64,000 bases of DNA. Origin: Primorskyibacter aestuariivivens. GTDB taxonomy: Bacteria > Pseudomonadota > Alphaproteobacteria > Rhodobacterales > Rhodobacteraceae. The number at the start of each line of letters is the position of its first letter. Within the stretch, counting starts at the first letter, position 1. The notes under the pieces are model-generated. The model did not search any database and was not told the origin of the DNA. It saw nothing but the letters and a program-made list of their open reading frames with translations. The DNA lies in assembly GCF_028023675.1 (NCBI RefSeq), contig NZ_JAQIOZ010000020.1, positions 1 to 64,000 on the forward strand, in the 5' to 3' direction. The translations under genes were made by a program, and so were the position numbers. Shown one piece after another: positions 19,075 to 21,561 of this stretch.

Positions 19075-19968
19075 TCAGCCCGCTTTCGACGCCTCGTAGA
19101 TGCTGTCGATCGTGGCGGCGAGCGTGGCGTTGAACTCCTCGTCGCTTTGCTGCGCCGACAGCCCTTCGGTGGTCGCGCGCGAGAAGCTGGCGATCATGCC
19201 GGTGTTTTCGGCCAGCTTGGCGTTGGCCTCGTCGCGCGAATAGCCGCCCGAAAGCGCCACAACGCGCATCACCTTGGGGTGATCGACCAGTGATTTATAC
19301 TGGTTCGCCTTGCTGGGCAGCGACAGTTTCAGCATGATCTGCTGACCCTCGGGCAGGGTGTCGAGCTGCTTGGTGATTTCCTCCAGAAGGATGTCCTCGG
19401 CCTCGGCCTTGTCCTCAATCGTGATGGTGACTTCCGGTTCGATGATCGGCATCAGCCCGTGGGACAGGATCTGGCGACCGACCTCGAACTGCTGCGCCAC
19501 ATTGGCGGCGATGCCCGCCGGGTTGGCCGCGTCGATGACCGAGCGCATCTTGGTGCCGAACACGCCCTTGGACACGGCGCGGGCGCAAAGCGCGTCGAGA
19601 TCGGGCATTGGTTTCATCAGTTTCACGCCATCGGTTGGCTCTGCCAACCCCTTGTCGACCTTGAGGAACGGCACCACGCGGCGTTCGTTCCAGAGGTATT
19701 CAGCGGTGGGTGTGCCGTCGATCTCGCCATCCATTGTCCGCTCGAACAGGATCGCGCCCATCACCTTGTCACCGGTAAAGGCGGGCGATTTGATGATCCG
19801 CGCGCGCATCTCGTGGATCAGGCCGAACATCTCTTCGTCATTCGAATAGGCGTCTTCCTCGATGCCATACAGCTTGAGCGCCTTGGGGGTGGAGCCGCCC
19901 GATTGGTCCAGCGCCGCGATGAAGCCGTCTTTTTCAGCGGCCTGTTTGGCCATTTCCGGGTTGGTCAT
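19075..19968 (-). CDS. fbaB: Class I fructose-bisphosphate aldolase
   Basis: 297 residues from the ATG at 19968. The N-terminus (MAKQAAEKDGFIAALDQSGGSTPKAL) and the GTPTAEYLWNERRVVPFLKVDKGL block are those of the short class I (Schiff-base lysine) aldolase found in many proteobacteria. It interconverts fructose 1,6-bisphosphate with glyceraldehyde 3-phosphate and dihydroxyacetone phosphate. It lies 417 bp downstream of pgk, with structured DNA between, and a LacI-type half-palindrome 68 bp upstream of its start suggests shared control with zwf and eno. Confidence 0.93.
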   Translation of the reverse strand: MTNPEMAKQAAEKDGFIAALDQSGGSTPKALKLYGIEEDAYSNDEEMFGLIHEMRARIIKSPAFTGDKVMGAILFERTMDGEIDGTPTAEYLWNERRVVPFLKVDKGLAEPTDGVKLMKPMPDLDALCARAVSKGVFGTKMRSVIDAANPAGIAANVAQQFEVGRQILSHGLMPIIEPEVTITIEDKAEAEDILLEEITKQLDTLPEGQQIMLKLSLPSKANQYKSLVDHPKVMRVVALSGGYSRDEANAKLAENTGMIASFSRATTEGLSAQQSDEEFNATLAATIDSIYEASKAG

Positions 19969-20035
19969 GGGGAATCCTGTTTGAAAGAGTATCGTTGGCA
20001 GGTGTTTAGGCCAGTGTCGGCAGCGGCGCAATTCT

Positions 20036-20047
20036 GGTGGCGCTAAC
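20036..20047. promoter_or_regulatory. Degenerate LacI-type operator upstream of fbaB
   Basis: GGTGGCGCTAAC matches 10 of 12 positions of GTTAGCGCTAAC, the perfect palindrome upstream of zwf and eno. It lies 68 bp upstream of the fbaB ATG, close to the spacing seen for eno. The right half-site is intact and the left is degenerate. Confidence 0.35.
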
Positions 20048-20087
20048 CGTGCGGGATTGGCTTGGTGTTGTGTGTGCCGAGCGCGAG

Positions 20088-20237
20088 GCGAATGGCAAAT
20101 TTGGGACCATTCGCGACGCTCGTTCGGAGCGCCGGGCCGGTTAACAGCCGCGAAGCGGCCCGGCCATCCATTGCCCGGCAGGCGAATTGGCATGGCCAAT
20201 TCTGCCGAGAGTGGGCCAGCCCCTCCCAAGGGCTGGC
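20088..20237. other. Cluster of five inverted repeats between pgk and fbaB
   Basis: Five perfect stems follow one another in 150 bp: GCGAATGG/CCATTCGC (20088-20114), CGCTC/GAGCG (20117-20131), CCGGGCCG/CGGCCCGG (20132-20163), GAATTGGC/GCCAATTC (20184-20202) and GCCAGCCC/GGGCTGGC (20215-20237). No T-tracts follow. The 417 bp between the fbaB and pgk reading frames hold nothing else recognisable except the operator-like site at 20036. This may be a structured leader, a terminator array or a repeat composite. Confidence 0.6.
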
Positions 20238-20385
20238 GATTTGGTTGATGATCGCGCGAGCCTTATTCTGATGCAGTATTTGGCAGGCATAAAGTGCTTT
20301 GAATCGCCCGTTGGATCGCCACCCCAGGGGCTGACGTTGCGAAAGGTAGCTTGTCCCGCAAATCAAACACCCTTTGCCCCGCACC

Positions 20386-21561
20386 TCACCCCAGCGCCGC
20401 CACGCCCGGCAGCGTCTTGCCTTCCATCCATTCAAGGAACGCCCCGCCCGCGGTGGAGATATAGGTGAAATCCTCCGCCGCACCGGCCTTGTTCAGCGCG
20501 GCCACCGTGTCGCCGCCGCCCGCCACAGAGATCAGCTTGCCCGCCTTGGACAGCTCTGCCGCCTGTTTCGCCGCCGCATTGGTGGCCGCATCAAACGGCT
20601 CGATTTCAAACGCGCCCATCGGTCCGTTCCAGATCAGCGTTTTGGCGGTTTCCAGCACACTGGCCACCTTGGCCACGGTCTCCGGTCCCGCATCTAGGAT
20701 CATCGCATCCGCCGGGCAGGCATCGGCGGCCACGACCTCATTCTCGGCGCCTGCCTTGAATTCCCGCGCGACAACCACATCCACCGGCAGGATGATCTCG
20801 CAGCCCGCCACTTTGGCCTTCTCCATGATCTCCAGCGCGGTGCCGGTCATGTCATGTTCGGCCAGCGATTTGCCCACGTCGATGCCCTGCGCCGCCAGAA
20901 ACGTGTTGGCCATGCCGCCGCCAATCACCAGATGATCGACCTTGCTCACCAGATTGCCCAGGAGGTCCAGCTTGGTCGACACTTTCGCACCGCCCACTAC
21001 GGCCACCACGGGGCGTTCGGGATTGCCCAGAGCGGCCTCAAGTGCCGAAAGCTCCGCCTGCATCAACCGGCCCGCGCAATTGGGCAGCAGTTTCGCCACG
21101 CCTTCGGTCGAGGCATGCGCGCGATGCGCGGCGGAAAACGCGTCATTGCAATAGATATCGCCCAGCGAGGCGAGGAACCCGGCCATTTGCGGGTCATTGG
21201 CCTCTTCCATCGCGGTGAAGCGGGTGTTTTCCACCAGTACAACCGCGTCGGCGGGCAGGGCATCAAGCGCATCGCGCGACGGGGTCTCGACAAAGGTCAC
21301 CTCGCGGCCCAGCGCCGCCTCCAGCGCGGGCAGCACCTGGCGCAGCGACATCTCCGGCACGACCTGGCCCTTGGGACGTCCGAAATGCGCCAGCAGCACC
21401 GGCTTGCCCCCGGCGGACAGGATATCGCGAATGGTGGGCAGGATACGCTGGATGCGGGTATCATCGGTGACGACGCCATCCTTGACCGGAACGTTGATGT
21501 CCACGCGGGTCAGCACGATCTTGCCCGAAAGGTCCATATCGTCGAGAGAATTCCAGCCCAT
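20386..21561 (-). CDS. pgk: Phosphoglycerate kinase
   Basis: 391 residues from the ATG at 21561, chosen because [29 protein letters not shown] is the usual alphaproteobacterial start. It transfers phosphate between 1,3-bisphosphoglycerate and ADP. Visible are the RVDINVP and HFGRPKG substrate loops, [16 protein letters not shown] and the C-terminal nucleotide segment GPMGAFE ... [12 protein letters not shown]. It is transcribed towards fbaB. Confidence 0.96.

Follow-up and report, generated by a model that had tools for sequence, protein, structure and literature searches.

One palindromic repeat inside another downstream of pgk in Primorskyibacter aestuariivivens: a dispersed, structured repeat family of Rhodobacteraceae

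Introduction

REP and BIME sequences, which go with RAYT (Y1) transposases, are dispersed imperfect palindromes at the 3' ends of genes and have RNA-level effects on mRNA 3' ends; a REP unit measures about 20-40 nt and carries a 5' tetranucleotide. MITEs are non-autonomous, have terminal inverted arms with a target-site duplication, and share their ends with a parent transposon. The Rhizobium-specific intergenic mosaic elements (RIME) of the Rhizobiaceae, which Osteras reportedly described in 1995, are said to be intergenic, ~100-180 bp long and built of large palindromes. In Bradyrhizobium, Br-REP1 and Br-REP2 are palindromic intergenic repeats in 3'-UTRs; Br-REP1 was originally noticed as a set of three stem-loops separating convergent genes, the copy number is strongly species-dependent, and the Br-REPs are part of larger composite repeats (PMC5082802, available part of the text).

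Here we analyze a 64,000-nt stretch of the Primorskyibacter aestuariivivens genome (the window; contig NZ_JAQIOZ010000020.1, positions 1 to 64,000), in which a preliminary description had noted five consecutive perfect stems between pgk and fbaB. Most of this array belongs to a degenerate copy of a dispersed palindromic repeat and to a second, smaller palindrome lying inside it. Related genomes and loci are referred to by G and L numbers where they have to be told apart.

Results

The hairpin array between pgk and fbaB

The array lies between pgk (phosphoglycerate kinase; 20389-21561, minus strand; its NCBIfam match is with a bifunctional model and falls short of the cut-off) and fbaB (fructose-bisphosphate aldolase; 19075-19968, minus strand; NF003784, 500 bits, above cut-off). 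Because both genes are on the minus strand, the transcript that matters is that of the minus strand. All five perfect stems of 5-8 bp are found exactly where the preliminary description had placed them: 8 bp at 20088-20095/20107-20114, 5 bp at 20117-20121/20127-20131, 7 bp at 20132-20138/20157-20163 (9 bp when extended to 20131-20139/20156-20164), 8 bp at 20184-20191/20195-20202, and 8 bp at 20215-20222/20230-20237. The 5-bp stem at 20117 is of a length freely expected from chance. Apart from it the array is not a chance product, and its density is above chance: 20088-20237 contains four stems of 7 bp or more that do not overlap, whereas 1000 dinucleotide shuffles average 0.32 and none reaches four. 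Among the 150-bp tiles of the window, 344 have no such stem, 74 have one, seven have two, and the only tile with three is that of the array. In addition, 20060-20260 folds with z=-4.4 on the minus strand, which none of 200 shuffles equals, and with z=-3.2 on the plus strand.

The five stems are distributed over three or more separate units, and the largest part belongs to a unit that extends to ~20335, beyond the interval 20088-20237. The stems at 20088 and 20117 both lie outside this main unit, element 1. The stem at 20088 is part of an additional hairpin (20081-20121, minus strand), to which we assign no origin; its outer pairs take the arm that had previously been paired at 20117, and it has no other copy in its own genome beyond short chance-level matches.

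Simple termination had been held not to explain the array, and we see no convincing terminator: 3 kb contain 3 terminator-like sites compared with 2.8 expected by chance. An intrinsic terminator, with a GC stem and a T tract, is not found here, and the copies of element 1 end without a T tract.

Element 1 and its copy in the window

A blastn search with the pgk-fbaB spacer gives many other matches in the same genome and in relatives, and their alignment yields one composite unit. From 11 uninterrupted copies we built an alignment (A1), from this a 31-pair consensus hairpin, and from this a covariance model, R1. Element 1 consists of a 31-bp imperfect hairpin with a ~75-nt loop, which is unpaired and carries a conserved box (CACUUUAU, then GCCA), followed by a 3' hairpin.

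The minus strand of 20129-20335 is a degenerate copy of this dispersed ~170-nt element. Its recognizable core (20215-20335, minus strand) comprises the upper helices and the loop with GCACUUUAUGCC.GCCA, begins some 50 bases past the pgk stop, and includes the stem at 20215 in the element-1 helix. The cmsearch score of the core with R1 is 79.8 bits (E 3.1e-10 in its own genome, 8.7e-12 over 30 loci). The match is confined to positions 16-136 of the 172 in R1, and the long helix has decayed in its lower 5' arm. The 3' terminal hairpin (20129-20167, minus strand), made up of the stem at 20132 and its inner stem, was placed by alignment with 21 other extracted copies, and it occupies the position taken by GCGCGGCGGCCTTCGGCCTTGATTCCGCGC in other element-1 copies. 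This copy is degraded and interrupted; it may have no function, and an effect on pgk and fbaB is no more than possible.

A second palindrome interrupts element 1

The interruption is a ~47-nt palindrome, element 2 (20168-20214, minus strand; identified by its exact pattern and its contexts), which consists of the stem at 20184 and an outer stem and separates the long helix from the 3' hairpin in this copy of element 1. The ends of element 2 are constant, and its center is variable and always paired. Its exact pattern occurs at 12 places, spread over 7 of 101 genomes; the reversed control occurs nowhere. Three of these places are at the same element-1 junction (P. aestuariivivens, G012, and G079), and two more copies, in G002 and a second in G012, sit at the element-1 junction but escape the exact pattern. 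Of the 12 places, six or more are in or beside transposase genes, and the fragments adjoining element 2 match rve, HTH_21, HTH_Tnp_1 (twice), IstB_IS21, and DDE_Tnp_1; one copy is inside an IS21 istB gene, with positions 151-198 of the IstB profile before the insert and 206-238 behind it. Eight other element-1 copies of the P. aestuariivivens genome (L088, L089, and L091-L096) carry other extra hairpins, of the CATGCCGAAGGCATGCC type and the GTCGCCATTGGAGCGCCATTGG type, at approximately the same junction, indicating that the junction is a hot spot. The suggestion of a composite of mobile palindromes is thus supported, in that one palindromic repeat lies inside another and each of the two has copies at other sites of this genome and in related ones.

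Distribution of element 1

In the P. aestuariivivens genome a search with R1 yields 20 matches at E<=4.5e-4, two of which (L097 and L098) are a divergent variant. These two appear as a second element type, similar to element 1 in layout and different in sequence. Among the 101 related genomes 29 have matches, all within the same family (29/61 family members), compared with 0/40 genomes from other alphaproteobacterial families. Eight other genomes contain from 18 to at least 27 copies each. In a family-wide sample, where at most 14 candidates were scored per genome, at least 88 of 198 genomes contain element 1. An exact loop pattern is present on nine named contigs, all titled as Rhodobacterales (Roseovarius, Lentibacter, Rhodophyticola, and 'Rhodobacteraceae bacterium'), and the element is also present on plasmids of Salipiger and Pseudosulfitobacter. 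Full-length R1 matches measure about 165-195 nt, and the span with shared flanks reaches ~240 bp in one recent pair. Like REP/BIME sequences, element 1 is a dispersed intergenic imperfect palindrome with many copies per genome.

The 4227 covariance models of Rfam 15 give no match at the gathering threshold in the window, and at a permissive threshold there is one chance-level match among five loci. A viral origin was rejected on the basis of a single loop-region pattern, which has no exact match in viral contigs. We found no earlier description of element 1 in Rfam 15 or in the literature searched (mostly papers outside subscription), and the available parts of PMC5082802, PMC2873474, and PMC4809877 do not describe it. 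Judged by these comparisons, the family appears undescribed, and its kind, the dispersed palindromic intergenic repeat, is known.

Compensatory changes and alternative pairing

In 108 copies, 95.6% of the pair cells are standard pairs, compared with at most 45.5% when the partners are slid; sliding by 1-3 columns abolishes the pairing signal. Both sides of the pair change at 23 of the 31 pairs, and the cells with changes on both sides number 435, compared with 133 after shuffling. The preliminary description had proposed to look for conservation of the stems in relatives. This conservation is missing at the pgk-fbaB locus itself, whereas the dispersed family shows it strongly, with compensatory changes.

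One segment is shared by the two hairpins: it is the 5' strand of the 3' hairpin, where it pairs with the 3' tail, and it can instead pair within the foot of the long hairpin. At columns 9/241/273 both alternative pairs are kept in 102 of the 108 copies (G-C-G in 60, C-G-C in 32, and U-A-U in 10). At columns 7/243/271 the tail keeps C in the 19 copies with an A-U pair and thus does not follow, so that alternation is supported at a single column.

Selection on RNA or on DNA

A G-U pair on one strand is an A-C mismatch on the opposite strand, and a palindrome selected as DNA should therefore show both equally. The structure-fitted alignment contains 88 G-U and 39 A-C cells, with 17 of the A-C cells at the loop-closing pair. 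With this pair left out (30 of 31 pairs used, as in the sequence-only counts) and one count per pair, genome, and type, the numbers are 69 G-U and 20 A-C. We also counted on a sequence-only alignment (first 112 of 142 rows), whose model realigned 100 loci, with L196-L215 left out and 18 family-wide and five exact-pattern loci added. This alignment gives 89 G-U and 23 A-C cells; 33 genome or locus groups have a G-U excess and three an A-C excess, and counting by pair position gives only 16 for G-U and 10 for A-C. The G-U excess favors selection at the RNA level, on the modelled strand, with some ascertainment bias remaining because the initial detection of the loci used a structure model, which favors G-U.

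Genomic position of the copies

Element-1 copies lie at the 3' ends of genes, mostly some tens of bases from the stop codon. We classified the neighboring genes of 100 of the 108 copies, which include three weak extra matches, after setting aside four inside a predicted reading frame and four with a missing neighbor. The copies lie between convergent genes in 52 cases, codirectional genes in 42, and divergent genes in six, compared with seven, 33, and 20 for other gaps in the same loci (n=60) and four, 22, and six for the gaps in the window. These counts are approximate, because the simple gene caller used recovers 36 of 43 annotated 3' ends and makes 12 extra calls. In publicly annotated sequences, all four copies examined on Salipiger abyssi plasmids are between convergent genes, and in Pseudosulfitobacter pseudonitzschiae one copy is between codirectional and two are between convergent genes. 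Among the codirectional copies, 25 are in the sense of the genes and 17 opposite; this difference is not significant, which weakens a strand-specific 3'-UTR role.

Spread and persistence

For the nearest-neighbor analysis the three weak matches were excluded (105 copies used). Genomes with three or more copies contribute 91, of which 66 have their nearest relative in the same genome, compared with a mean of 11.5 and a maximum of 33 after shuffling. Two copies of G076 are 99.4% identical and share a flank of ~35 nt on each side. This clustering by genome, together with the near-identical pair, indicates recent multiplication. As a separate observation, the copies of G021 (L156-L168 and L101) are mostly preceded by a palindrome, CGTAGGGTGGGTTTCCAACCCACC, as if the two were co-spreading.

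A few sites are common to different genera with the structure kept: behind gyrB, G000 (the P. aestuariivivens genome), G002, and G079 carry a copy at an identical site, and G062 also has one behind gyrB (gyrB and pyrG were identified from translated flanks). The gyrB copies of G000 and G002 are nearest relatives of each other, as are the pyrG copies of G001 and G002. At the pyrG end, element 1 is reversed in P. aestuariivivens (L085) relative to the congeneric G001 and G002 (L104/L209), and the same is true at the pgk end relative to a contig-end match in the congeneric G002 (L051). Opposite orientations at the same gene ends fit repeated arrival, or inversion, at favored ends.

Element 1 has long inverted arms, and in its flanks, when compared, neither a target-site duplication nor sharp ends were seen. 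We also considered a REP-type Y1 transposase (PF01797) as the mover and rejected it, because its presence does not track the copy number of element 1; it is absent in the copy-rich genomes G005, G012, G013, G014, and G021.

The pgk-fbaB locus in relatives

We compared 30 pgk loci of the P. aestuariivivens and related genomes. An fbaB-like gene is within reach downstream of pgk in nine of them. The pgk-fbaB spacers of all eight relatives with this adjacency lack the stems and give no match with R1. A different sequence is common to most of the relatives' spacers, as judged by eye (L052, L059, L077, L067, L070, and L071): a GTTAGCGC(C/A)ACCA..ATTG-like motif, which lies at 20028-20049 (minus strand) in the window, closer to fbaB than the stems are and just upstream of the gene. 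It is probably the gene's own control region, and we presume a resemblance to a LacI-type, CceR-like operator.

Discussion

We favor, with a probability of about 0.6, the reading that element 1 is a non-autonomous REP/RIME-like repeat of the Rhodobacteraceae/Roseobacteraceae acting as a transcribed 3'-UTR structure. The element has multiplied within many genomes, presumably moved by an enzyme supplied in trans, and its copies are retained chiefly just past stop codons and between convergent genes. Its structure appears to be held by selection as RNA, in one orientation, and the hairpin, transcribed behind a gene, would mark or protect the mRNA 3' end, as REP elements do, and might limit read-through into the neighboring gene. 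An RNase-resistant or processing element, which the preliminary description had considered, would be compatible with the data, the position behind stop codons and the G-U excess giving it indirect support. In the window, a degenerate copy lies after pgk and is broken by element 2, a putatively mobile hairpin. More tentatively, element 1 may be a mobile structured-RNA family that has been co-opted as a 3'-UTR module able to adopt either of two folds, which would punctuate convergent genes and receive insertions of smaller mobile hairpins.

A conserved structured leader of fbaB, as proposed in the preliminary description, would explain why the array is upstream of fbaB and on the same strand. 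The comparison of the pgk-fbaB spacers eliminates it unless the structure is strain-specific, since none of the eight relatives with the adjacency carries the array and the conserved sequence before fbaB is on the fbaB side of the stems; in addition, the element-1 family is found mostly behind genes, which makes this explanation extremely improbable. A more serious rival holds that the elements are purely selfish DNA palindromes of the MITE/REP type, with hairpins that serve single-strand transposition and a 3'-end location that reflects least-harm insertion. The clustering of copies by genome, the near-identical copies with shared flanks, the scarcity of copies between divergent genes (6/100), the presence of element 2 inside transposase genes, and the lack of a significant orientation bias all agree with it. 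However, an excess of G-U over A-C of about 4:1 is unexpected for a DNA palindrome, the orthologous gyrB copies persist across genera with the structure kept, and the box in the unpaired loop is conserved, and we therefore consider pure selfishness rather unlikely.

The conserved loop box and the triple covariation at columns 9/241/273 could belong to a trans-acting small RNA family or a conditional RNA switch, in which the 3' hairpin and the long hairpin would be alternative folds. This explanation is improbable, because good support for the alternation comes from a single column, the copies lack a T tract and have no common regulated gene that we noticed, and they lie at 3' rather than 5' ends.

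The presence of recent and old copies together, with reversed orientations in congeneric species, offers a test of selfish palindromes becoming mRNA 3'-end elements. With strong covariation, occurrence in more than two fifths of the Rhodobacteraceae genomes sampled, and no Rfam match, the family could readily be proposed as a new RNA-family entry, and it may also serve 3'-end annotation in marine bacteria.

Among known systems, MITEs are likewise non-autonomous and have inverted arms; no target-site duplication was seen in the flanks of element 1 that were compared, and no parent transposon was found in the search, which was that for PF01797. REP/BIME sequences are likewise dispersed 3'-end palindromes, but the matches of element 1 are far longer than a REP unit and a Y1 transposase does not track them; on size and transposase we therefore file element 1 as a new family of dispersed palindromic intergenic repeat and not as a REP. 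RIME and element 1 are both intergenic, palindromic, and alphaproteobacterial, and are set apart, by description, by the host family. Compared by description with the available part of PMC5082802, the Br-REP units are short (consensus of about 20 and 40 nt) and differ from element 1 in sequence and in bacterial family, and no counterpart of its conserved loop domain is reported there. Br-REP1 and Br-REP2 nevertheless resemble element 1 in being palindromic and intergenic, in their 3'-UTR location, and in their convergent-gene setting, and on that partial text they are the nearest description of it that we found (PMC5082802).
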